DNA from: an uncultured Bacilli bacterium
Lineage (GTDB): Bacteria; Bacillota_I; Bacilli_A; RF39; UBA660
NCBI GenBank assembly: GCA_947598455.1
Contig: CANQFI010000037.1
Span: forward strand, 1-13,699
Direction: 5' to 3'
Length of the DNA: 13,699 bases
Within the stretch, counting starts at the first letter, position 1, and each line of letters begins with the position of its first letter. Positions 1,882 to 13,658 of this stretch are shown here, piece by piece. The position numbers and the translations under genes are program-made. Below the pieces are notes generated by a model that made no database searches, was not told the origin of the DNA, and saw only the letters and a program-made list of their open reading frames with translations.

Positions 1882-3795
1882 ATGAAGAAGAAATCACTAA
1901 TAATAGGCATTAGTATAATTATATTATTAGTAGTTATTATATGTATTATAAGTGTTATTTCTAATAAAAAAAATAATAATGAAGAAAGTACTTTAGCATA
2001 CAAAATATATAATGATTCCAAAGAATATGTAAAAAATAATTCATCATCTAATTTATTCGATGGTGATACTAACATTTTATCTTATGTATCTAATGAAGAT
2101 AAAATATTAGATGAAAGTAGTGTTATTGTTAATAAAGATGGCAATATATCATTAAAATTATTTTTTGATAATACTTGTTTTTATAAAGATTTTAATGATG
2201 GAGACATTACGCAAACAGCTGATAAAGATGAATGTTCTACATATGCTTTAAATTATCGTGAATCAACTAGTATGTATTCATGGAATTCCTATTCTTTAAC
2301 TAAATCAAATGATTTAATAAAAATACTAAAAGAATTAAAAGTAAAAGACTTATATCAAAGTATATCTAGTAATAATATGGATAAAGAATATATCGAAGAA
2401 ATTATCAAATATTATCATGATGAAGGAATAAATGTATACCGTTTAATCGGAGATTCTGCTTGGGCATATGATATAAGTACTCCTAAAAAAGAAATAGATG
2501 AAATTATTAAATATAATAAAACAGTATCAGATGATGCCAAAATATTAGGAGTTACAATTGATATAGAACCACATACGAGTAAACAATGGAAAAAAGCTAA
2601 TGATAAAAGTAAAGAAAATATTTTTGATACTTATGTCGATAACATGATAAAACTATATAATTATGCTAAAGAAGGTAACTTAGAAGTTGTTTTATGTACT
2701 TCGGTATGGTTCAATAGGTATAAAAGTTATGAAAAATTATATACAAGTGCTGCTGACACTTTTTCAATTATGAATTATGAAAAAGAAAATAATATTGAAA
2801 ATATTAAAGAAGAATTAGAATTAATAGAAAAAAATAATAAAAAAGTTGAAACAATAGCTCATAGCGGTTCTAATAGTGAAGAAACTGAAAGTTATCATAA
2901 TGATACATTTACTAAACTACAAGAAGATCATAAAAAGATATTAGATAATTATAGCTATAAAAAATTTAGAGCTTCATATCATTATTTAACATCAATTAAT
3001 TATTTAAAAAGTAAACAAAATTTCTTATTAGTATATTATGAAACTGATGATGGATCTACATTAAATGATATGACACTAGAAGATAGTAAAGGTAATAAAA
3101 TAAATGGTGATTTAATATTATTAAAAGATGAAACCTTCTATCTATTTGTTGGGATAAATAGTGAAGAAGAATATCATGTTAGTTCAAGTAGTCATGATGT
3201 TATAAATAGTGATTCAATTATCATTGATAATTCTGAAAATGGAAGAACCAAAGTAGATATTAAATTTGAAAAGAAAAGAACCGATCCTAAAGTTGGCGAT
3301 TATGTGGCTTATCCATATATTTATAAAAACGTTGTAGATGGTTGGTCAAGTGAGTCTTCCTTATCTGGTTGGCGAATCCTATCAATAGATGGTGATAACA
3401 TAAAAATAGTTAGTGCTGGTACTCCTGAATTATATGAATATAGTACAGACTCTGATACAGCTCTTGAAGAAATAGATAAGAAATTAAAGAAATATTTAAA
3501 TAGTTCATACGCTAGTTCAGTTGAAAGCTTAAATAAAGAAATGATAGATGATTATTGTGACTGTGATTCAGCCCATATAGGAAATATTGAAGATACTATA
3601 ATTAATAATAATAGTAATGTTTTGCTAGCTACTAAATATGATGATAAAAAAATTTATCTCTTAGAAAAAACAGGAGATATTTACGAAATAGGAACAATTA
3701 AAGCCAAGTTTGGTTTAAGACCAGTTATTACTTTAAACATCAAACAATTTCAAAAAACTAATAAAGATAATGAATGGATAATTTCTAAAAAATAG
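1882..3795 (+). CDS. Membrane-anchored TIM-barrel (glycosidase-like) protein with C-terminal WRILSIDG-type domain
   Basis: The protein has 637 residues, with GGGGAG seven bases before the ATG. Residues 4-27 form one hydrophobic anchor with an MKKK start, placing the rest outside the cell. Residues 36-135 are a poorly recognised region with a possible Cys pair (NTCFYKDF, DKDEC). Residues about 150-370 read as a TIM barrel of the putative-glycosidase type: GINVYRLIGDSAWAYD, LGVTIDIEPHTSKQW, NLEVVLCTSVWF, FSIMNYEKE, VETIAHSGS. D227 and E229 in IDIEP are the best acidic catalytic candidates. Residues about 465-637 resemble the DUF6273-like domain of many gut Bacillota surface proteins (KVGDYVAYPYIY, GWRILSIDGDNIKIVSAG, FGLRPVITL). 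It has its own promoter and no clear terminator, so readthrough into the phosphodiesterase gene is possible. Substrate unknown; a cell-surface glycan is inferred. Confidence 0.7.
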   Translation: MKKKSLIIGISIIILLVVIICIISVISNKKNNNEESTLAYKIYNDSKEYVKNNSSSNLFDGDTNILSYVSNEDKILDESSVIVNKDGNISLKLFFDNTCFYKDFNDGDITQTADKDECSTYALNYRESTSMYSWNSYSLTKSNDLIKILKELKVKDLYQSISSNNMDKEYIEEIIKYYHDEGINVYRLIGDSAWAYDISTPKKEIDEIIKYNKTVSDDAKILGVTIDIEPHTSKQWKKANDKSKENIFDTYVDNMIKLYNYAKEGNLEVVLCTSVWFNRYKSYEKLYTSAADTFSIMNYEKENNIENIKEELELIEKNNKKVETIAHSGSNSEETESYHNDTFTKLQEDHKKILDNYSYKKFRASYHYLTSINYLKSKQNFLLVYYETDDGSTLNDMTLEDSKGNKINGDLILLKDETFYLFVGINSEEEYHVSSSSHDVINSDSIIIDNSENGRTKVDIKFEKKRTDPKVGDYVAYPYIYKNVVDGWSSESSLSGWRILSIDGDNIKIVSAGTPELYEYSTDSDTALEEIDKKLKKYLNSSYASSVESLNKEMIDDYCDCDSAHIGNIEDTIINNNSNVLLATKYDDKKIYLLEKTGDIYEIGTIKAKFGLRPVITLNIKQFQKTNKDNEWIISKK

Positions 3796-3885: not shown

Positions 3886-5337
3886 ATGAAAAAGATATTA
3901 AAAACTATTCCATATAATATTTTTCTAATAATATTACTAGTCGTTACTATTCTTTTAATATGTATTGCTTTTATGACAAATATTAGTAGAGAATATAAAA
4001 GTATTATCCTAATATTAGGTTTTATATCTATACTATATTCTAGTGTAGTATTACTATATTCATTCTATCGTGATAAAAAATGGTACAACCAAGTATATGT
4101 TGATTCAATAACTAATGGATACACAGGAGAAAAATTTAAACTAGAATACGAAAAAACTCTTTCTTCTAAAGCCCTTATAGTAATGGATATTAATCAATTT
4201 TCTTTACTTAATAAACATTATGGTTACGAACATTGTAGTAAAATATTAAAAGAAGTATATGAAATATTAAAAGAAAATTTACATGATAAAGGTTTTTGTT
4301 ATAGAGAATTAGATGATCGTTTTATTATCTGTTTAACTTATAAAAGAAAAACGGAAATAATTCATTTTATAGAACGTATCGACTATAAGATTAAAGAAGC
4401 TTTATCTCTAGATTTTGGTATTTCTCTAGCTTATGGTATTTGTGAATGCAAAGATGAATCATTTGTTGATGCTGAAAGTAAAGCCTTAGTAGCCTGGAAA
4501 AACGTAAAAAAATTTCCTGGACAGAATTATGCCTTTTATGAAGAAGAAAAACTTAATTTAATGATTGAAAATAGAATTTTATTAGATAAATTAGAAAAAG
4601 CCTTAAAAGAAAATAAATTAAGTATTTATTTTCAAGCTAAATATGATGTTAAATCTAAAAATATTATCGGAAGTGAAGCCTTACTTCGTTGGCAAGATGA
4701 TGATGGCTCCTTTATTTCACCACAAAGATTTATTCCAAGTGCTGAAGAAACTGGTTTAGTTACTAAAATTGATTCCTATGTTTTAAATCAAGTATGTTCT
4801 ATTTTAGCCAGTTTAAAAAAAGATGGTTTAAATCCTGGAATTGTTTCTATAAATGTTTCAAGAAATAAACTTGGCGAAAAGAATATCGTTAAAGAATACG
4901 AAAATGTCTTAAAAAAATATAAAATATCTAAAAAAGAAATCGAATTAGAAATAACTGAAGGAACAATATTATCAGAAAATCAATTAGTTCATACAGCTAT
5001 TGAAGCTCTAATTCAAAGAAACTTTGGAATTTTAATTGACGATTTTGGAACAGGCTATTCATCCATTTCCATGCTAAAAAATTTGCAAATGAAAGGTATT
5101 AAAATTGATCGCGCCTTTGTTATGGACGAAACCAAAAAAGGCAAAGAGATACTAAAATATGTTGTAACATTAGCTAAAGGTCTTAATTTAGAGACAATAG
5201 CTGAAGGAGTAGAAGAAGAATCACAATATAAATATTTAAAAGAATTAGGTTGCGATGGTATACAAGGCTACTATTTTTCAAAGCCCATGCCTCTAAAAGA
5301 ATATCGAGAATTATTAAGTCAATGTAAAAAGAGTTAA
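3886..5337 (+). CDS. Membrane c-di-GMP phosphodiesterase (degenerate GGDEF, intact EAL)
   Basis: This 483-residue protein should hydrolyse cyclic di-GMP to pGpG at the inner face of the membrane. Two membrane helices (about 8-31 and 38-61) precede a GGDEF-fold region (about 70-215). Its signature is degenerate: the GGDEF site reads LDDRF in RELDDRFIICL, so cyclase activity is not expected, though GTP binding as an allosteric input is possible. The EAL domain (about 228-480) keeps its motifs: E264-A-L (GSEALLRW), N323 (NVSRNK), E355 (ELEITEG), D385-D386 (DDFGTGYSS), K406 (KIDRAF), E440 (AEGVE) and Q460 (QGYYFSKP). AGGGAG at 3869-3874 is 11 bases before the ATG, a rather long spacing. The gene has its own promoter and terminator directly upstream of the polysaccharide operon, which suggests it lowers local c-di-GMP to restrain that system. 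Confidence 0.9.
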   Translation: MKKILKTIPYNIFLIILLVVTILLICIAFMTNISREYKSIILILGFISILYSSVVLLYSFYRDKKWYNQVYVDSITNGYTGEKFKLEYEKTLSSKALIVMDINQFSLLNKHYGYEHCSKILKEVYEILKENLHDKGFCYRELDDRFIICLTYKRKTEIIHFIERIDYKIKEALSLDFGISLAYGICECKDESFVDAESKALVAWKNVKKFPGQNYAFYEEEKLNLMIENRILLDKLEKALKENKLSIYFQAKYDVKSKNIIGSEALLRWQDDDGSFISPQRFIPSAEETGLVTKIDSYVLNQVCSILASLKKDGLNPGIVSINVSRNKLGEKNIVKEYENVLKKYKISKKEIELEITEGTILSENQLVHTAIEALIQRNFGILIDDFGTGYSSISMLKNLQMKGIKIDRAFVMDETKKGKEILKYVVTLAKGLNLETIAEGVEEESQYKYLKELGCDGIQGYYFSKPMPLKEYRELLSQCKKS

Positions 5338-5370: not shown

Positions 5371-5399
5371 TTGACAAAAAAGAAGCGATTTACTATTAT
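5371..5399 (+). promoter_or_regulatory. Strong sigma-A promoter of the polysaccharide operon
   Basis: A perfect -35 TTGACA (5371-5376), a 17-base spacer and TATTAT (5394-5399) make this the best promoter in the window. The start would be near 5406, leaving a leader of about 46 bases that is too short for a c-di-GMP riboswitch. It immediately follows the terminator of the phosphodiesterase gene, so the two units are transcribed separately. Confidence 0.8.
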
Positions 5400-5407
5400 A
5401 TATTTGA

Positions 5408-5425
5408 ATTTTATTTAAATAAAAT
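5408..5425 (+). promoter_or_regulatory. 18-bp perfect palindrome just after the operon's transcription start
   Basis: ATTTTATTTAAATAAAAT is a perfect palindrome at about +3 to +20 of the predicted transcript. Its position fits a repressor operator or a small 5' hairpin. It is pure A/T, so a chance origin in this base composition is quite possible. Confidence 0.3.
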
Positions 5426-5451
5426 AATTTTATTGGGAAAAGGGGGATGAA

Positions 5452-6147
5452 ATGAGGAAAGTTCTACGTCAAGAGAAAAAGTTTTTAATTGATACTTTTG
5501 ACTATTTATCAAACGCTTATAAATTTGAACAAATTTTAATACCTGATGAACATAATCATAATGATGGTTATATTGTTAGAAGTCTTTATTTTGATACAAT
5601 TGATGATCGTGACTACCATGAAAAAATGGCTGGAGTAAAAAACAGAAGAAAAATTCGTCTTCGAGTTTATGATCCTAAAGGTTCATTTGCTTTTTTAGAA
5701 ATAAAGCAAAAAGAAGGTCAATATCAATTAAAAAGATCTTTAAAGATTAGTAAAGAAGATGCTTTAGAATTAATTAATAAAAATTATAATGTTTTATTAA
5801 AATATGATGAAAACTTTGCAAAAGAATGTTTTAGTATATTAACTAACGATTGTTATGTACCTAAAGCAGTCGTTGAATATAAAAGAAAAGCCTTTATCGC
5901 TAAAGAAAATAGTATAAGGTTAACCTTTGATTCAGAAATTGTAGCTAACGAAAATAATTACAATATTTTTGATGAAAACTTACTATTATATCCTGTATTT
6001 CCCCAAGAAAATGTTGTATTCGAGGTGAAATATAACGGCTTTTTATTAAGTTATATTAAAGACTTAATCGAAGTTATTAATCGTAGCGAGTTATCAATAA
6101 GTAAATATTGTTTAGCACGTCAAGTTACAGTTAATTATTTATATTAA
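5452..6147 (+). CDS. VTC-domain (TTM/CYTH superfamily) protein, polyphosphate-polymerase-like
   Basis: This 231-residue cytosolic protein is a complete triphosphate-tunnel metalloenzyme domain of the VTC type. The basic and acidic tunnel residues are all visible: E8-K9-K10 (RQEKKFLI), R43 and Y46 (VRSLYFDT), R66-K67-R69-R71 (RRKIRLRVY), E83-K85 (LEIKQKE), E142-K144-R145 (VVEYKRKAF), R156 (IRLTFDSEI), E191-K193 (VFEVKYNG) and S217-K218-Y219. In yeast Vtc4 this fold makes polyphosphate from ATP; the bacterial stand-alone members are poorly characterised, so the exact reaction here is inferred. It is first in the six-gene operon, with AGGGGG (5441-5446) five bases before the ATG, and 17 bases separate it from the DUF4956 gene, a frequent partner. 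No membrane segment or SPX domain is present. Confidence 0.85.
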   Translation: MRKVLRQEKKFLIDTFDYLSNAYKFEQILIPDEHNHNDGYIVRSLYFDTIDDRDYHEKMAGVKNRRKIRLRVYDPKGSFAFLEIKQKEGQYQLKRSLKISKEDALELINKNYNVLLKYDENFAKECFSILTNDCYVPKAVVEYKRKAFIAKENSIRLTFDSEIVANENNYNIFDENLLLYPVFPQENVVFEVKYNGFLLSYIKDLIEVINRSELSISKYCLARQVTVNYLY

Positions 6148-6164
6148 AGAAGTGGGGAGTAAAA

Positions 6165-6842
6165 ATGAAAGAAACTTTATTAGAGTTATTACAACAATCA
6201 CAATCACTTTCAGTAAATGAAATTATAATGCATTTAGTCGTAGCAACTATTATAGGATTTTGTATATATATTTCATACCAAATCAGTCATATGGGTACTG
6301 TATATAGTAAAAAATTTAATGTTTCACTAGTAATGCTTACTATTTTAACAGCTACTGTTATGACAGTTATTGGAAATAATGTAGCATTATCATTAGGTAT
6401 GGTCGGTGCCTTATCTATTGTACGTTTTAGAACAGCTATTAAAGATTCAAGGGATACAGCTTATATCTTCTGGACAATTATAGTTGGTATTTGTTGTGGT
6501 GTTGGTGATTATTTTGTTGCTGGTATTGGTTCAGCAATAGTATTTATCGTTATGTTAATATTAGGACATGTTAAAAATGATAATCGTATATTGTTAATTA
6601 TTCGTGGTTCACGTGTCGAAGATTTGAAAATAGAAGGAGTTATTTTTGAATTTTATCAACATAGAGCTGTATTAAAAGCAAAAAATACTTCTAAAGATAG
6701 TGTAGAATATATTTATGAATTAACAAGAAAAACATATGATATGGCTTTAGAGAACAATAAAAGTATTACAGAAGAATTATATAAAATTAAAAATATTGAA
6801 TATGTAAATACTGTTGTTCAAAGTGACGATATAAGTGGTTAA
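6165..6842 (+). CDS. DUF4956 family membrane protein
   Basis: A 225-residue polytopic protein with about four membrane segments (about 20-38, 53-70, 99-117, 119-136) and a soluble C-terminal domain (about 140-225). The diagnostic conserved core of DUF4956 is clear: GMVGALSIVRFR (78-89), then IKDSRDTAYIFW with D94, R96, D97. The strongly conserved RFR and SRD charges at a membrane boundary suggest a ligand- or ion-handling role, but no function has been established for the family as far as I know. The family is repeatedly found beside VTC and CotH proteins, as here. GGGGAG lies just upstream of the ATG, and only two bases separate its stop from the CotH start, implying coupled translation. Confidence 0.85.
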   Translation: MKETLLELLQQSQSLSVNEIIMHLVVATIIGFCIYISYQISHMGTVYSKKFNVSLVMLTILTATVMTVIGNNVALSLGMVGALSIVRFRTAIKDSRDTAYIFWTIIVGICCGVGDYFVAGIGSAIVFIVMLILGHVKNDNRILLIIRGSRVEDLKIEGVIFEFYQHRAVLKAKNTSKDSVEYIYELTRKTYDMALENNKSITEELYKIKNIEYVNTVVQSDDISG

Positions 6843-6844
6843 TT

Positions 6845-8272
6845 ATGAAAGCTAAATGGGTAACTTTTATATTAGTAATAGTAGTTATAAGTGTTACATT
6901 CATAGCTGGAAGTAATTTTTTTGCTAAAGGACCACAAAAGAATGAATATAAATTTTATCATGAAGATAATAAATGCTCAGATACTGAGAATGGTTTTTGT
7001 ACGCATTTACCACTTGTATCAATAGATACAGGTGGACAAGATATACCAGGAGCCAATCATGAAAAAGATACTATTTCTTCAACCATATCTATTGTTGATA
7101 ATCAAAAAGGCGGTAATCATTTAGATGATAAAAAAGACGTAGATACCAAAGCAAACATTCGTTATCGTGGAAATAGTTCTTTATCATTTGATAAAAAAGG
7201 TTATTTATTAAAATTTGTAAATGATGATGGTACTGAAAACAAACAAAAAGTCATGGGCATGGAAAAACATGATGAATGGGTTTTACATGGACCATTTATT
7301 GATAAAACTTTAATGCGTAATTATCTTTGGTATCATATTGCAGGCGAAATAATGGACGACGCTCCAGATTCAAGATTTTGTGAATTATTTGTTGATGGTG
7401 AATATCAAGGTGTTTATTTGATGGTTGAATCGCCAAGTCGTGGTGATAGTAGTCGTATGCAAATTAAAAAATATGAAGATGGAAAAAGCTATACACCATA
7501 TATTGTTAGACTAGATAGATATGATGAAAACGACTGGGGAACAATTAATAATTTTTCTCATTACGCTTATATAAGTGGCAATACTAAAACAATTGGTTAT
7601 AATATAGTTTACCCTGGGCAAGATAAAGTAACTGATGAATTAAAAAGATATATTGAAAGTGATTTTTCTAAGTTTGAAAAGAAACTTTATTCTTTTGATT
7701 ATGATACACATTTATATGGTTATGAAAATTTTATCGATATAGATTCTTTCGTAAATTATTATATTTTAAATGAGTTTACCCAAAATTATGATGCAGGTAG
7801 ATATTCAACATATTTGTATAAAGATGTAAGAGGTAAATACGGAATTTATGTATGGGATTTTAACTCAGCCAACGATAATTATGAATATGAAATACAAATT
7901 AATGAATTAAAATTGCAAAATACAAACTGGTATTCAATGTTAATAAGCGATGAAGATTTTACACAAAGAATTATAGATAGATATAGATATTTAAGAAATC
8001 ATTCTTTAAATGAAGAATATTTATTAAATTATATTGATGCCATTATTGAATATTTAGGTTCAGCAGTTGATCGAAACTTTGCTGTTTGGGGTTATACATT
8101 TGATGGATTTAAAGAGGAATATACAATATTACAAAATAGTATACCTTCATATGATGTAGCCATTGAACAATTAAAAGACCACATTGAAGAACGCGGAAAA
8201 TTTTTAGATGAGTATATTGATACAATCAAACAATTCTCTTCTGAATCAAAAGTAAAGAAATATAATCATTAG
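6845..8272 (+). CDS. CotH-type protein kinase-fold protein, membrane anchored
   Basis: The 475-residue protein starts with a hydrophobic anchor (about 4-24), so the kinase domain should face outward. CotH landmarks appear in order: the glycine loop RGNSS (108-112), YLLKFV, EWVLHGPFIDKTLMRNYL, FVDGEYQGVYLMVE, the catalytic-loop segment NEFTQNYDAGRYSTYLYKD with D316, and the metal-binding segment VWDFNSA with D338. The 22-residue spacing of these aspartates matches the two essential aspartates described for Bacillus CotH, a Fam20-like kinase that phosphorylates spore-coat proteins. Activity is therefore plausible. There is no sign of a spore-coat setting here, so the target is more likely a secreted matrix or surface protein, or the polymer itself (inference). 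The weak Shine-Dalgarno (AGTGG) suggests dependence on translation of DUF4956. Confidence 0.88.
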   Translation: MKAKWVTFILVIVVISVTFIAGSNFFAKGPQKNEYKFYHEDNKCSDTENGFCTHLPLVSIDTGGQDIPGANHEKDTISSTISIVDNQKGGNHLDDKKDVDTKANIRYRGNSSLSFDKKGYLLKFVNDDGTENKQKVMGMEKHDEWVLHGPFIDKTLMRNYLWYHIAGEIMDDAPDSRFCELFVDGEYQGVYLMVESPSRGDSSRMQIKKYEDGKSYTPYIVRLDRYDENDWGTINNFSHYAYISGNTKTIGYNIVYPGQDKVTDELKRYIESDFSKFEKKLYSFDYDTHLYGYENFIDIDSFVNYYILNEFTQNYDAGRYSTYLYKDVRGKYGIYVWDFNSANDNYEYEIQINELKLQNTNWYSMLISDEDFTQRIIDRYRYLRNHSLNEEYLLNYIDAIIEYLGSAVDRNFAVWGYTFDGFKEEYTILQNSIPSYDVAIEQLKDHIEERGKFLDEYIDTIKQFSSESKVKKYNH

Positions 8273-8288
8273 AAAGTGGGTGAAATAG

Positions 8289-10412
8289 ATGAAAAAGTTT
8301 TTGATAGTTGTTACTGTATTAATAAGTGTTTTATTAATTTATGATTTATTATTCTATGAATTCGGCTTTTTTATCGATTTTCATCCAAATAAAGAAGTAA
8401 CAACATTTGTTAAAACTGACGGGAAAACAATACTATTAAATAAGGATGGAACGTATGAAGAGTTTGAAATAAAAGGTGTTGATTTAGGTTCTGGTATTCC
8501 AGGAAAGTTCTCAACAGAATATGCTATAGATGAAGAAACTTATTTAAGATGGTTTAAGTATATTCAAGATATGGGAGCTAATACAATTCGTATTTATACA
8601 ATGCTAAATGATGATTTTTATAATGCTTTTTATAAATATAATAAAAATAACGAAAAACCACTTTATTTAATTCAAGGCTTATGGGTAAATGATTACATTT
8701 TAAATTCTCGTTTAGATGCTTATGATGATAAATTTTTAGGTCAAGCTTTAAAGGATAGTAAAAAATTAGTAGATATTATTCATGGTAAAAGACAAGCTAC
8801 TATTGGAGCAGAATCAGGAACTGGCTTTTATTTTCATGATATATCTGATTGGGTTATTGGTTATATTCTTGGTGTAGAATGGGAAGAAAGAACCGTTGCT
8901 TTTACTGATGATATTCAAAGAGAACGTAGTCCATACCAAGGAAAATATATGTATACATCTGATGATGCTAGTGCTTTTGAAGCTATGCTTGCCCAATTAG
9001 GTGATAAAATAATCGAATATGAATCAACAAGATATAAAAATCAAAGATTAGTAGCATTTGCTAACTGGCCATCAACTGATCCCTTTGAATATTCTGAGGA
9101 GTTTCTAAATTATATTTATAAATATGCTTCAGTCGATGTTGAACATATTAAATCAACTGATAAATTTATTTCTGGACAATTTGCATCTTATCATATATAT
9201 CCATATTTTCCAGATTATTTAAATTATGATCCCGAATATGCAGATTATACTGATGAAAATGGTGTAAAAAATACATATCGCGCATATTTAACGAAAATAA
9301 ATAAGTACCATACCATGCCAGTGGTTATAAGTGAATTTGGTATTCCATCTTCAAGAGGAATGGCAGACTATGAACGAAATGTTGGTCGAAATCAAGGACG
9401 AATGAGTGAAGACGATCAAGGCAAAGCCCTAGTCGATTGCTATAACGATATTCGTGCCGCTGGCATTAAAAATGCCATAATTTTCACATGGCAAGACGAA
9501 TGGTTTAAAAGAACTTGGAACACTATGCATGCTGTTAATTTAAATAAAACTGCCTATTGGAGCGATTATCAAACAAATGAACAATTCTTTGGCTTATTAA
9601 CATTTGACCCCGGTGAAGAACGTAGTATTAGTTATGTTGATGGTGATATTGAGGAGTGGAGGAGGAAGGATTTAGTTTATGAAAATAATGGACTATCTAT
9701 TTCCCATAAATATGACGAAAAATTTATGTACTTCTACATTCATCAAGATGGTTACAAAGATAACCCAGTACCATTATATATTCCTATAGATATAACACCA
9801 AAAAGTGGTGCTACTAAAAGTGAAGAACATAATATTAATTTTGCCAGAGCTGCTGACTTCTTAATTGTAATTGATGGTAAAAATAATAGTCGAATTCTAG
9901 TTCAAGAAAGATATAATACAATAGAAGCAATGTTTGGATATGAACTATATAATAGAAATAGTTATGTTAATCCTCCAGCTATTGATAGTTCTAAATTTCA
10001 AACAATTGATATGATTATCAGATATGTAGGAAACACTATAAATTATGAAAAATCTTTAGACAAATACGAAACCGGAAAACTAACCTACGGCAACGCTAAT
10101 CCTGATAGTAAATATTATAATTCTTTAGCTGACTTTATAATAAATGGTGATGATATAGAGATAAGAATACCTTATGGTTTACTTAACTTCTCAGATCCAT
10201 CTAATATGAAAATCCATGACGATTACTATAAATATTATGGAGCTGAAGAATTAGGAATTACAGAAATGTATATTGGTGTTGGTGATGGAAAAGAAACTAT
10301 TCCAATGAATAAAGTAAGTTTAAAAGGTTGGAAAAAAGATGTAACATATCATGAAAGATTAAAAAAATCTTATTACTACATAAAAGAAATATGGGGTGAT
10401 ACAGATGACTAA
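8289..10412 (+). CDS. Membrane-anchored clan GH-A-like glycoside hydrolase with C-terminal CBM9/DOMON-like module
   Basis: A 707-residue protein with an N-terminal anchor (4-22). Residues about 50-430 look like a GH2/GH5-type TIM barrel: KGVDLGSGIPGKF at the entry, DMGANTIRIYTML as an early strand, YLIQGLWVN, then YILGVEWEER with E197 as candidate acid/base, and VVISEFGIPSSRG with E349 as candidate nucleophile. AIIFTWQDEWFKRTW is the typical late aromatic strand. From about residue 448, VDGDIEEW...KYDEKFMYFYIHQDGY resembles the start of a CBM9/DOMON-like beta-sandwich, reaching to about 690. It probably trims, releases or loads the exported polymer at the cell surface, as glycosidases do in other synthase-dependent exopolysaccharide operons. 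The linkage it cleaves cannot be read from the sequence. GTGGGTG precedes the ATG. Confidence 0.82.
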   Translation: MKKFLIVVTVLISVLLIYDLLFYEFGFFIDFHPNKEVTTFVKTDGKTILLNKDGTYEEFEIKGVDLGSGIPGKFSTEYAIDEETYLRWFKYIQDMGANTIRIYTMLNDDFYNAFYKYNKNNEKPLYLIQGLWVNDYILNSRLDAYDDKFLGQALKDSKKLVDIIHGKRQATIGAESGTGFYFHDISDWVIGYILGVEWEERTVAFTDDIQRERSPYQGKYMYTSDDASAFEAMLAQLGDKIIEYESTRYKNQRLVAFANWPSTDPFEYSEEFLNYIYKYASVDVEHIKSTDKFISGQFASYHIYPYFPDYLNYDPEYADYTDENGVKNTYRAYLTKINKYHTMPVVISEFGIPSSRGMADYERNVGRNQGRMSEDDQGKALVDCYNDIRAAGIKNAIIFTWQDEWFKRTWNTMHAVNLNKTAYWSDYQTNEQFFGLLTFDPGEERSISYVDGDIEEWRRKDLVYENNGLSISHKYDEKFMYFYIHQDGYKDNPVPLYIPIDITPKSGATKSEEHNINFARAADFLIVIDGKNNSRILVQERYNTIEAMFGYELYNRNSYVNPPAIDSSKFQTIDMIIRYVGNTINYEKSLDKYETGKLTYGNANPDSKYYNSLADFIINGDDIEIRIPYGLLNFSDPSNMKIHDDYYKYYGAEELGITEMYIGVGDGKETIPMNKVSLKGWKKDVTYHERLKKSYYYIKEIWGDTDD

Positions 10413-11553
10413 TATGTTTCAAGTAACAAACATTATCTATCTATATCTACTTATTACTATTTGTTTAATATTCTTTAATGTATGGTATGTACTATATGAA
10501 AAAATAAGTATAAAAATTGGTGAGAAGAAAAAAGAACAATATCTTAAAATAATCAAAAACGAAGACGAAAATGAAGAAATAAGTGAAAAAAGATTAAAAT
10601 ATTTCTATCATCAATTAAAAAATGTTAACAACTTTATCTGGTTTGATTCAGTTCTAGATGATATTAGAAAAGATGAAGAAAGCGAAATAGATGTAGATAA
10701 ATTTATTTTAAAACTTAATTCTGTATTTCAGAAATTAGCATCTTACTATCGTAAAGAAGACTCAGTTCAAAAAGCCTTCTTTGCCCATGTCTTAACCAAC
10801 TATCCTAATATTAGTGATAATAAATCAGACCAAATATATAAAGCAATTACCGAATTTACTTATGATGATTCAATTTATTGCCGTGAAAATGCTATGCTAT
10901 ATCTCTTTAATAATGGAACTGTCGATAATATAATTCACGCTTTAATAAATATGAATAATCGTAATTTATTCTATAACCAAAAAATGTTAACTGATGATTT
11001 ATTAAAATTTAAGGGCGATAAACAAAAATTAGCTGAAAGATTATTAGAATTATTTGATGAATTTATCGTTGAAACTCAAATTGCCATTATTAACTTCCTT
11101 CGTTTACTAAAAAATGGCTATGAAGAAAAAATATATGAACTCTATACTCAACATAAATACGATAAAGAAGTAGAACTAGCAATGATTCGTTACTTTGCTA
11201 GACACATTTATCCTCCGATCTTAACTGAATTTGAAAAGACCATAAAAGATAAAAGCGTCGATAACGATGAATATAGAATTATTTTAGCTAGTACTTTAGC
11301 TTCATATGATGAAAAAGAAGTAAGACAATTATTAATAGAAGCCTTAAGTGATACAAATTGGTATGTTAGAAAAAATTCAGCCACTTCATTAGCTCGTATG
11401 AAAATTACTGATAATGAATTAAAAGAAATTCTTGAAAGTAATGACCGCTATGCTAAAGAAATGGTATCTTATATTTGGAAAGATTTAGGTAAAGAATATA
11501 CTCCAACTTTAGATAAAGAATCTAATAAGAAAGGAAAGAAAAAACATGTATGA
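10405..11553 (+). CDS. Membrane-anchored HEAT-repeat protein
   Basis: I place the start at the ATG at 10405, six bases after GGGGTG (10393-10398), rather than the GTG at 10396; this overlaps the glycosidase stop by eight bases and gives 382 residues. One membrane helix (about 9-29) is followed by a basic segment (KISIKIGEKKK), which by the positive-inside rule places the rest in the cytosol. The remaining roughly 300 residues are alpha-helical with HEAT-like repeats, clearest near the C-terminus: VRQLLIEALSDTNWYVRKN, SATSLARMKITDNELKEIL. The lysine-rich tail (NKKGKKKHV) ends in a TGA overlapping the next ATG. HEAT solenoids are protein-docking scaffolds. Position and topology suggest a partner or regulator of the glycosyltransferase, perhaps analogous in place to PgaD or to the missing PilZ receptor; this is inference. 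Confidence 0.75.
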   Translation: MTNMFQVTNIIYLYLLITICLIFFNVWYVLYEKISIKIGEKKKEQYLKIIKNEDENEEISEKRLKYFYHQLKNVNNFIWFDSVLDDIRKDEESEIDVDKFILKLNSVFQKLASYYRKEDSVQKAFFAHVLTNYPNISDNKSDQIYKAITEFTYDDSIYCRENAMLYLFNNGTVDNIIHALINMNNRNLFYNQKMLTDDLLKFKGDKQKLAERLLELFDEFIVETQIAIINFLRLLKNGYEEKIYELYTQHKYDKEVELAMIRYFARHIYPPILTEFEKTIKDKSVDNDEYRIILASTLASYDEKEVRQLLIEALSDTNWYVRKNSATSLARMKITDNELKEILESNDRYAKEMVSYIWKDLGKEYTPTLDKESNKKGKKKHV

Positions 11554-12982
11554 GTTAATTGAATTTGGTAAAGTATTTTTACATGTTGTAAATGTCTTCT
11601 TTGTAGCATATTTAATTGGTTACTCAACATATTTATTCTTATGTGCTACAGTTGGTAGTTATACTTTATATAAATATCGTAATTATCGTAAATTAAGTAA
11701 TAGATTAAGTCATGAATATTATGTACCAGTATCTATTTTAGTTCCTGCTCATAATGAAGATTTAAACATAGTAGATACAGTTCGTTCATTATTAGATTTA
11801 AATTATAAATTATATGAAATAATAGTTATTGATGATGGCTCAACAGATGATACTTCTAAAAACTTAATTAAATACTTTAAAATGAATAAAGTAGATCGAC
11901 CACTTCATCGTGTCTTAAAATGTGCATCCATAAAAGGAATCTATGAAACAAACGATACTAAAGTTAAAATAACATTAATTATGAAAGAAAATGGTGGTAA
12001 ATCAGATGCTTTAAATGCTGGTATAAATGCTTCAAACTATCCATATTTTACTTGTATGGATGCTGATTCAATGTTACAAAGAGATGCTTTAGAAAATATA
12101 GTAAGACCAATTTTAGGTGATGATAGAGTAGTAGCATGTGGTGGTATAGTTCGTATATCTAATGGTTTAAAATTTGAAAATGGTTATATAAATGAATACC
12201 ATCTTCCTAAAGGACTTTTAGTAAGTATGCAAGTCCTAGAATATGATAGATCTTTTTTAGCATCTCGCATTCTATTTGATCAATTTAATGGTAACTTAAT
12301 AATATCAGGAGCCTTTGGTTTATTTAAAAAAGACATAGTTATTGCTGCCGGTGGCTATGATGCTGATACAGTTGGCGAAGATTTTGAATTAGTTATTAAA
12401 TTACATGTATTCTGTAAAATGCATAATATAGATTATATAATTAAATATATTCCTGAAGCAATATGTTGGTCACAAGCTCCAAGTAATTTAGCTAGTTTAT
12501 TTAGACAAAGAAGAAGATGGCATAAAGGTTTATTACAAGGAATGCTAAAATATAAAGAACTATTTTTAAACTCATCTTATGGTTTAATTAGCTTTATATC
12601 TTTCTTATATTTCTTATTATATGAATTATTATCTCCATTTATTGAAATATTTGGTATATTTACGATGATTTTAGCTTATTTCTTAGATTTACTTAATGTA
12701 CCATTTATGCTTATGTTTATGCTTATTTATATCTTCTTTGGTGCTGTCTTATCATTGTGTACTTTCTTTGCTAGAGTTCATGTTGAAAATATAAAATTAT
12801 CTATTTGGGATGTTCTTAAAGCTATATTACTTTGTTCTTTTGAGATTACAATCTTGCATTTTATTATTTTAGTCGCTCGTTTATCAGCATTTATAGGTTA
12901 TAAAAAGAAAAGAAAAGTATGGGATAAAGTTGATAGACAAAAGAATGATTTCAATTTAGAAAATAATGTAAGTGATGGTTAA
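11546..12982 (+). CDS. Processive family 2 glycosyltransferase (polysaccharide synthase)
   Basis: This 478-residue membrane protein should polymerise a beta-linked polysaccharide from UDP-sugars and extrude it. One helix (about 12-38) leads into the GT-A domain: VSILVPAHNEDLNI, IIVIDDGSTDDT (D96, D97), ENGGKSDALNAGIN, the metal-binding DADS (D172, D174), the catalytic GED (D279 in TVGEDFELVIKLH) and Q321xxRW (RQRRRWHKG), the hallmark of processive synthases. Three to four helices follow (about 345-455). It resembles PgaC (poly-GlcNAc) and BcsA (cellulose) cores, but the tail ends soon after the last helix, so there is no PilZ domain and the polymer cannot be assigned. The start overlaps the stop of the HEAT gene (ATGTATGA), indicating translational coupling. 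The stop codon sits in the loop of the operon's terminator. Confidence 0.9.
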   Translation: MYELIEFGKVFLHVVNVFFVAYLIGYSTYLFLCATVGSYTLYKYRNYRKLSNRLSHEYYVPVSILVPAHNEDLNIVDTVRSLLDLNYKLYEIIVIDDGSTDDTSKNLIKYFKMNKVDRPLHRVLKCASIKGIYETNDTKVKITLIMKENGGKSDALNAGINASNYPYFTCMDADSMLQRDALENIVRPILGDDRVVACGGIVRISNGLKFENGYINEYHLPKGLLVSMQVLEYDRSFLASRILFDQFNGNLIISGAFGLFKKDIVIAAGGYDADTVGEDFELVIKLHVFCKMHNIDYIIKYIPEAICWSQAPSNLASLFRQRRRWHKGLLQGMLKYKELFLNSSYGLISFISFLYFLLYELLSPFIEIFGIFTMILAYFLDLLNVPFMLMFMLIYIFFGAVLSLCTFFARVHVENIKLSIWDVLKAILLCSFEITILHFIILVARLSAFIGYKKKRKVWDKVDRQKNDFNLENNVSDG

Positions 12983-12998
12983 TGCCATCATTTTTTTT
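12971..12998 (+). terminator. Intrinsic terminator of the polysaccharide operon
   Basis: GTGATGGT (12972-12979) pairs with GCCATCAT (12984-12991), including terminal G-T wobbles, around a four-base loop. Eight T follow (12991-12998). The GT2 stop TAA (12980-12982) is in the loop. The compact GC-containing stem and T tract make this the clearest end of the operon. Confidence 0.85.
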
Positions 12999-13615
12999 AG
13001 GAAAATATGTTAATGATGAATTAATAAATCATAATTACAAGGTCATCGCCTTTGGTAGAAATGAAAACAAATTAAAAGAATTGCAAAAAGAAAACGTTGA
13101 TATATTTGTCGGTGACTTCTGTAATAAAAGTGATGCTCTAGCTGCTACTAAGAAAGTAGATTATGTAATTCACTGTGGTGCTTTATCAACCGTTTTTTTT
13201 TGGGGGGGGTAAAAGAGAAGATTTTATAAATACTAACGCAAACGGAACTATAAATCTAATTGAAGGCTGTTTAAAAAATAAAGTAAAAAGATTTGTATAT
13301 GTATCATCACCCAGTATATATGCAGCTAAAGAAAATAAAGAAAATATTAAAGAAGAATACAACGAATCAAATAAACTCAATTGTTATATCGAAAGTAAAA
13401 TAATAGCTGAAAAAAAGATTAAAGCCGTTGGTCATATTTATAACATAACTAATGATGAACCAGATTTTTGTGATAAATTAGATCAAGAATTAGCCAAAAC
13501 CAAACCATTAGCTAATGTTCAAAATAATAACTTAAATTCGAATGATAATACCTTTCTATCACCAATGATAAATACTATTGTGTTATTTACTATCAAGGAC
13601 ATAATTATCAATTAA
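12991..13615 (+). pseudogene. Decayed NAD-dependent epimerase/dehydratase (extended SDR, 3-beta-HSD-like)
   Basis: The reading FLGKYVNDELINHNYKVIAFGR is the second half of an extended-SDR N-terminus, and VDYVIHCGALSTV and RFVYVSSPSIYAA are further family landmarks. Three lesions are seen. (1) The glycine-rich NAD motif (TGATGF type) and start codon are missing, and homology begins at the terminator T run. (2) A T9G8 run at 13193-13209 shifts the frame; family members read roughly STVWGKREDF here, so about ten extra bases are present. (3) After ESKIIAEKKI the sequence jumps near 13420 directly to KAVGHIYNITNDEP, which lies far downstream in relatives, so on the order of 100 residues appear deleted. 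The catalytic YxxxK region is reduced to YIESK. The tail past about 13470 no longer resembles the family. No functional product is expected. Confidence 0.8.
13193..13209 (+). repeat. T9G8 homopolymer tract inside the SDR remnant
   Basis: Nine T (13193-13201) are followed by eight G (13202-13209). A G8 run is exceptional in this AT-rich window; the next longest G run is the five-base run in a ribosome-binding site. It causes the frameshift between the two SDR halves. A slippage-prone tract, plain decay, or a sequencing/assembly artefact are all possible. Confidence 0.9.
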
Positions 13616-13628
13616 AAAGCCTTAAATA

Positions 13629-13658
13629 ATAAAGCTTATCCAATAGGATAAGCTTTAT
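13629..13658 (-). terminator. Long perfect hairpin at the convergent gene end
   Basis: ATAAAGCTTATCC (13629-13641) is the exact complement of GGATAAGCTTTAT (13646-13658) around a four-base loop: a 13-bp stem. On the minus strand it is followed by TATTTAAGG, moderately U-rich; on the plus strand by ATAGTATTTG. It probably ends a minus-strand gene whose stop codon is inside the stem, and may also stop plus-strand readthrough. Confidence 0.55.

Follow-up and report, generated by a model that had tools for sequence, protein, structure and literature searches.

A NELoc-2-type operon recurrent in Bacillota: a probable exopolysaccharide machine with a candidate polyphosphate-fed phosphorylation module

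The subject of this study is a six-gene operon carried by a stretch of 13,699 nucleotides (hereafter the window: positions 1 to 13,699 of contig CANQFI010000037.1, assembly GCA_947598455.1) from an uncultured Bacilli bacterium. Six same-strand open reading frames (ORFs) between positions 5452 and 12982 encode, in order, a VTC-domain protein, a DUF4956 membrane protein, a CotH-family kinase, a 707-aa protein, a transmembrane (TM) protein with HEAT repeats and a GT2 glycosyltransferase. The closest described locus is NELoc-2 of Clostridium perfringens, whose published table of 11 genes (Table 4 in Lepp 2010, PMC2879425) holds, in the same order, VTC proteins of 230-232 aa, membrane proteins of 222-226 aa, CotH (497 aa), a hypothetical protein (685 aa), a HEAT protein (377 aa) and a GT2 (466 aa). 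It differs in carrying VTC and the membrane partner twice, on the two sides of a resolvase; the label given to the partner is tubulin/FtsZ, and its place in the order, its length and its membrane prediction lead us to read it as DUF4956. By order and sizes, compared with this gene table and not with the sequences, the window carries an operon of the NELoc-2 type. As far as the available text of that paper goes, its authors considered chitin synthesis or plasmid partition; we regard both the chitin synthase and the TubZ readings as unlikely. Later work, likewise available in part, supports the link of NELoc-2 to necrotic enteritis strains, but also places the locus in other strains, and in a newer annotation its products include CotH, HEAT, glycosyltransferase and polyphosphate polymerase.

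We propose that this operon is very probably a synthase-dependent exopolysaccharide (EPS) machine of Bacillota and, more tentatively and with somewhat less than even confidence, that the whole is such a machine with a built-in, polyphosphate (polyP)-fed extracytoplasmic phosphorylation module. The new part is the trio VTC-DUF4956-CotH, read as a putative portable module of this kind, for which the comparative signal from the genomes is strong. If the proposal holds, NELoc-2, a disease-associated locus, gains a concrete candidate function, an answer is offered to how secreted bacterial kinases obtain their phosphate donor, and polyP export with extracellular phosphorylation of glycans or proteins would be a feature of many Gram-positive surfaces.

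The trio is also in print as a set of accessory genes (cotH-PPP-DUF4956) of the Gram-positive Pel cluster, which in bifidobacteria has a diguanylate cyclase/phosphodiesterase neighbour, like the window (available parts of PMC7112168 and PMC12345266); a reading of the system as poorly described, made earlier from the sequence alone, was thus right but incomplete. The Pel cluster itself is built on pelDEADAFG and the window on a core of GT2, HEAT protein and glycoside hydrolase (GH): membership (pelD, pelE, pelADA, pelF, pelG) was rejected, as no Pel domain was found in the ten window ORFs at E 0.01. The clostridial cellulose synthase ccsZABHI shares a Gram-positive GT2 synthase with an outward glycosidase, and is further marked by a CBM11-like CcsB, a PilZ domain on CcsA and MBOAT/DHHW acetylation; no HEAT protein stands among its five genes and no CotH is named in the text available (PMC7710045). 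Conversely, the ten window ORFs contain no PilZ on the synthase and no MBOAT or DHHW domain, and Ccs membership was rejected too. The nearest NCBIfam model to the window GT2 is the poly-N-acetylglucosamine (PNAG) synthase PgaC_IcaA, at 152.5 bits far below its cut-off of 422.3; with no deacetylase domain in the ten ORFs either, the locus is not assigned to the PNAG (Ica/Pga) systems. Finally, the eukaryotic VTC complex shares a triphosphate tunnel metalloenzyme (TTM) polymerase domain with a conserved active site, but the window VTC is a lone 231-aa domain devoid of TM segments, and DUF4956 is a different membrane protein from that of the eukaryotic complex. Among the open-access literature matches, within the text available, no paper proposes polyP as the CotH donor and none treats the six-gene operon as an EPS system.

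In the window all six genes lie on the forward strand, separated by gaps of 17, 2 and 16 bp and then by two overlaps (glycosidase/HEAT and HEAT/GT2), just as the sequence-only reading had described them. The VTC protein (5452..6147; PF09359, 136 bits) is a predicted cytosolic polyP polymerase of TTM fold with no TM segment. DUF4956 (6165..6842; PF16316, 47.5 bits against a cut-off of 30.6) has an MgtC-like TM domain and a C-terminal ACT-like domain, and is our proposed polyP conduit. CotH (6845..8272; PF08757, 202.5 bits) has an N-terminal TM segment or signal, with its catalytic part predicted outside. The 707-aa protein (8289..10412) is, by predicted fold, a membrane-anchored extracellular GH-A TIM-barrel protein with a C-terminal beta domain. 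The TM-anchored HEAT-repeat protein (10396..11553; PF13646 (HEAT_2), 34.2 bits) is predicted to face the cytosol and is a likely partner of GT2, a processive membrane synthase (11546..12982; PF00535 (Glycos_transf_2), 96.7 bits). The Pfam scores exceed their cut-offs for VTC, DUF4956, CotH, HEAT and GT2; no Pfam model reaches its cut-off with the 707-aa protein. Searches of the window with Rfam and for tRNA and tmRNA gave no match.

Recurrence was studied with the HEAT protein as bait (at least 120 homologues; alignment A1 of 34 rows), taking one genome per species and the best 80 of 154 confirmed relatives (L001-L080). With the window these make up 81 loci, which are not independent, some of them (for example L021 and L038) being near-identical in layout. 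All six genes occur in order in 60 of the 81, a recurrence that excludes a chance origin of the block. Among the remaining 21 loci, a contig end truncates 14, 5808 N cover the place of VTC in L024, and in two (L041, L067) VTC is relocated downstream; within the stretches fetched, L057 has the glycosidase-like gene, HEAT and GT2 but no trio, and only HEAT-GT2 is present in L003, L006 and L008. The median gaps within the trio and on to the glycosidase gene are 16.5, 20 and 21.5 bp, followed by overlaps of 1 and 4 bp. Many gut bacteria are among the carriers; sources of the loci include Lachnospiraceae, Oscillospiraceae, Holdemania, Blautia wexlerae (L069), Murimonas intestini, Clostridium tunisiense and a metagenome-assembled genome of Paenibacillaceae. 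A second six-gene operon (L118), its glycosidase read as two ORFs, was seen in the same Holdemania genome as L023.

In phylogenetic trees the operon copies of VTC form one clade, which takes in all 65 of their leaves among 110 and nothing else (support 0.78), and so do those of DUF4956 (65 of 65 among 111 leaves, again with no other leaf inside, support 0.66); the 65 leaves include one duplicate, as L119 is the same locus as L026. Pairwise tree distances of the six genes over 56 loci are correlated with r from 0.31 to 0.92, the pairs HEAT-GT2 (0.92) and CotH-GT2 (0.82) being good examples. The two single clades of operon copies and the correlated trees suggest that the trio became part of the GT2-HEAT machine on one occasion and was then mostly inherited along with it. 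The sequence-only reading held that a recurring gene set would support a system, and recurrence in order together with the two clades bears this out. The trio and the GT2 half are also found apart, so that the six genes are a recurrent union and not an obligate unit.

A profile search with VTC reaches yeast Vtc4 (3g3q, E 6.7e-5), while a search of the PDB with the single VTC sequence gave chance matches only. Eight residues that we take to be the Vtc4 active site, all of whose letters fit at one numbering offset, map to columns that are invariant in 18 sequences and in 62 of 62 operon copies; all eight polymerase positions are basic in the operon members, R253 appearing as Lys. With PF09359 above cut-off and the TTM active site intact, the window VTC is predicted to be a polyP polymerase, and topology prediction finds no TM segment in 61 of 62 operon copies. 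For DUF4956 the MgtC model itself (PF02308) stays below threshold (23.9 against 31.4 bits), and the MgtC fold match covers the C-terminal domain only, tied with other folds. The membrane motif of DUF4956 carries an RxR, with R87 in 44 of 46 sequences (Lys in the other 2) and R89 in all 46, also outside the operon. The polyP channel of yeast VTC has a lining of basic residues on which vacuolar polyP depends, and synthesis is coupled to passage of the chain across the membrane through this basic channel (available parts of PMC9911596).

In CotH, K117, E195, D316, D338 and N340 are invariant in 64 of 64 operon copies, and alignment with 5jd9 sets D316 and D338 against Asp residues that are presumably D228 and D251. 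The domain and the catalytic Asp residues of a CotH kinase are thus both present, and topology prediction places 49 of 62 proteins outside and 4 inside; the operon CotH is predicted to be a kinase facing outside. If such an enzyme needs exported polyP, secreted CotH is expected in the company of VTC-DUF4956 and cytosolic CotH without it, because only an outside kinase would need an exported donor. We have compared 90 CotH genes from an even draw of 149 Bacillota genomes and a draw of 200 Bacilli genomes (overlapping in at least G027, G069, G106 and G135), classed by their N-terminal hydrophobic segment; second pieces of split matches were counted once, and the set omits G001 and G005 (unlocated, both in six-gene operons), G064:C21 (internal stop) and two fragments in G252. 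Secreted CotH genes lie in VTC genomes in 59 of 62 cases, 41 of these within 4 kb of VTC; for cytosolic CotH the figure is 9 of 28. Counted by genome, VTC accompanies secreted CotH in 46 of 49, and in genomes whose CotH is all cytosolic it is present in 2 of 20 (p 1.3e-11; the cut, 1.4, was chosen after seeing the data, and the test is uncorrected for relatedness). A pass flawed by misframing in eight loci, its cut set at 1.8, put 49 of 51 secreted and 20 of 40 non-secreted genes in VTC genomes. Three genomes, G268, G290 and G075, have secreted CotH and no VTC: the proteins of G268 and G290 (the latter at 1.41, beside the cut) look like spore-type proteins with a spurious upstream stretch, and G075 is a real exception.

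Of the 149 Bacillota genomes, 21 have VTC and the same 21 have DUF4956, with 26 copies each (p 5e-26); they are adjacent in 25 of 26 cases, and the remaining one lies on two contig ends. CotH is found within 3 kb of the pair in 17 of 26, and a near-full-length match to the HEAT profile in 2 of the 149 genomes, with partial matches in 3. VTC escaped our own hidden Markov models (HMMs) in two loci, L142 and L237, although Pfam had matched it there. Matches to VTC, DUF4956 and CotH were also seen in Corynebacterium glutamicum, a control genome. A 2025 paper reports, in the text available, a failure to find the VTC-DUF4956-CotH arrangement outside the Pel locus (PMC12345266); this is contradicted by the genomes, as PelG lies near just 1 of the 26 VTC copies (G106). 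A third EPS setting was found in L144, where a GT2, a bactofilin/leucine-rich repeat (LRR) protein and a DHHW/AlgX-like protein precede the trio; the gene ahead of that GT2 was read as galE.

As to the glycan machine, the motifs DDGS, DADS, GED and QRRRW are those of processive GT2 enzymes; the window GT2 has all four, and they are jointly present in 74 of 81 homologous ORFs. The HEAT protein is predicted inside in 70 of 80 cases and outside in 5, and the glycosidase outward-facing, so that the idea of an export core made of synthase, membrane partner and surface glycosidase needs refinement as to the side of the membrane on which each would act. The predicted fold of the 707-aa protein has GH157, a family of beta-1,3-glucanases, as its nearest solved family; a PDB sequence search with this single protein gave no matches. 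Its reading as a simple glycosidase was rejected: at least one of the two catalytic Glu residues is missing in 21 of 71 aligned homologues (L018, L027, L029, L034-L037, L041, L043 and L050 among them), a few of these positions standing beside alignment gaps, while the catalytic residues are kept in 62 of 62 VTC and 64 of 64 CotH proteins. The Glu-lacking homologues apparently make up a pseudo-glycosidase subclass whose gene is retained. There is some support for the view that a secreted gene just upstream of VTC replaces the lost activity, such a gene being present in 9 of 21 Glu-lacking vs 5 of 50 other loci (p 0.003, confounded by relatedness). Among the best 120 of 1451 homologues of the C. 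tunisiense glycosidase-like protein none has a C. perfringens name, and one (P0149) bears the name of a GH42 N-terminal domain from its source.

The gene set, its conservation, the predicted topology, the intact active sites of VTC and CotH and the link between secreted CotH and VTC-DUF4956 are backed by the data described above. In the mechanism that we propose, GT2 with the cytosolic HEAT protein would polymerise and extrude a glycan, which the outward GH-A protein would bind or trim. Inside, VTC would polymerise the phosphate of ATP into polyP; we infer that DUF4956 carries the chain across the membrane, in the role of the TM domain that the bacterial VTC lacks, and that secreted CotH, outside where ATP is absent, would use polyP as its donor, moving phosphate onto the nascent glycan or a surface protein. 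It is possible, though we hold it with clear reserve, that this is a general device by which bacteria phosphorylate outside the cell (VTC polyP, threading by DUF4956, secreted CotH), a portable module that stands alone or joins Pel, GT2-HEAT or GT2-DHHW synthases to give phosphorylated polymers, NELoc-2 being one case.

Several observations weigh against the polyP-fed module. The partner of the VTC-DUF4956 pair is not always CotH: a protein with a Cthe_2159 domain is the next gene in its place in 5 of 26 pairs, a Cthe_2159 relative lies beside the pair in 15 of 20 further loci that were picked for having no adjacent CotH, and neither is found by the pair in 4 of 26, so that CotH cannot be the sole use of the pair. 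CotH has been reported to be a protein kinase that uses ATP; among the 59 secreted CotH genes of VTC genomes, 18 stand apart from VTC, the split between the classes may partly reflect spore formers versus others, and the choice of cut and uncorrected relatedness mentioned above apply to it as well. For DUF4956, the structure model is of limited quality (pLDDT 73.9, pTM 0.54), unrelated ferredoxin-like folds match its proposed ACT domain equally well, and the RxR need not mark a polyP pore because it sits in an MgtC-like motif. The lowest correlation of tree distances (r = 0.31) is that between VTC and the glycosidase. In Streptococcus intermedius, as far as the available text goes, Pel is made without any one of the four accessory genes, and deletion of the polyP polymerase is not reported to have a separate effect (PMC12345266). 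In favour of the module, mutants in SIR_1592, by our reading the DUF4956 slot, made more Pel and CotH mutants less, and each lost >50% of aggregation in artificial sputum medium (same source).

A different account, which we consider unlikely, is that polyP itself is the exported product, a surface matrix or cation-binding polymer laid beside the glycan, anchored or bound by CotH or Cthe_2159. Cthe_2159 is a beta-helix protein. This account would explain both alternative partners and the invariance of the VTC active site; a surface role is also suggested by L231-L235, in which VTC-DUF4956 adjoins a divergent Cthe_2159-like gene near a gene read as dltA (teichoic acid D-alanylation). It does not lead one to expect kinase-type catalytic residues in every operon CotH, which a mere binder could dispense with, or the tie of secreted CotH to VTC, which is what a user of polyP should display. 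As a separate observation, in L122, L238, L246, L247 and L250 a pair of divergent genes resembling a two-component system (about 424-452 aa for the sensor kinase, about 225-232 aa for the regulator) precedes VTC-DUF4956-Cth​e_2159.

It is improbable, in our estimate, that the trio is a regulatory or stress module with no polyP export, in which CotH uses traces of ATP or another donor on surface or synthase proteins, VTC keeps a cytosolic polyP pool and DUF4956 is an MgtC-like regulator. The MgtC-like architecture of DUF4956 agrees with it, as do the proposals of regulation by protein phosphorylation and of phosphate metabolism in the available text of the Pel papers (PMC7112168, PMC12345266) and the moderate effect of deletions on polymer amount (PMC12345266); it does not account, however, for why DUF4956 and VTC are paired one to one, or why secreted and cytosolic CotH differ in their tie to VTC. 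Other reactions have been taken on by TTM and atypical kinase folds, and VTC and/or CotH might accordingly do other chemistry (triphosphatase; nucleotidyl or other transfer), the module decorating the glycan with a non-phosphate group; against the invariant basic Vtc4 positions and the two retained catalytic Asp residues of CotH we consider this very improbable. That the genes merely share ancestry and hitch-hike in one operon, the trio being functionally unlinked to the GT2 machine, would fit the many genomes with the trio or the VTC-DUF4956 pair alone and the four loci with HEAT-GT2 or GHx-HEAT-GT2 and no trio, but the conserved order, the short median gaps and the presence of the trio in three EPS settings (PelG in G106, DHHW-GT2 in L144, GT2-HEAT) make it extremely improbable.

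The polyP-fed EPS machine that we favour also has a recurrent neighbour. Directly upstream, a GGDEF/EAL protein (3886..5337, forward strand) has a full-length EAL domain (PF00563, 2.9e-66) and a GGDEF domain (PF00990, 1.7e-10) whose motif is degenerate by eye; it is likely a cyclic di-GMP (c-di-GMP) phosphodiesterase tied to the operon. A GGDEF/EAL ORF is found in the fetched stretch of 40 of the 61 loci having all six genes, from which we infer c-di-GMP control of the operon: such neighbours would tune the glycan machine. The sequence-only reading had left this gene outside the block and had taken the flanks to be eroded. Upstream, the full-length EAL domain and the recurrence of such genes show that the flanks are not simply eroded. 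Downstream, an SDR/epimerase gene (12982-13615) is read as two ORFs that overlap in different frames, the break falling at a T-then-G homopolymer, and may be a pseudogene or an assembly error. A clear counterpart of this downstream region was not found in the DNA after GT2 in L001, the closest relative.

The same reading had bracketed the operon with one strong promoter and one terminator. A promoter-like site (TTGACA-17-TATTAT, 5371..5399, forward strand, 11 of 12 matches) does lie 52 bp ahead of VTC, with TTGACA at the same place in L001, but the window is not enriched in sites of this kind (100 found vs 112.5 expected). A terminator-like hairpin overlapping the GT2 stop (12970..12993, forward strand) is present but weak, with 3 G-C pairs, and a second, stronger site lies at 13629-13658.

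Further upstream, the gene at 1882..3795 (forward strand) encodes a predicted secreted protein of a family that recurs beside the operon. Across the 81 loci there are 31 related ORFs, counting that of the window, and they often stand immediately ahead of VTC; L050:4098-4970 and L069:3884-4771 are further members. It is possibly a seventh member of the operon. A Pfam search of this family gave no match, and a GH18 label, suggested by a DxEP motif on reading, is not claimed. Finally, the short ORF at 586-852 resembles, by eye, a fragment of a BspA-type leucine-rich repeat protein.

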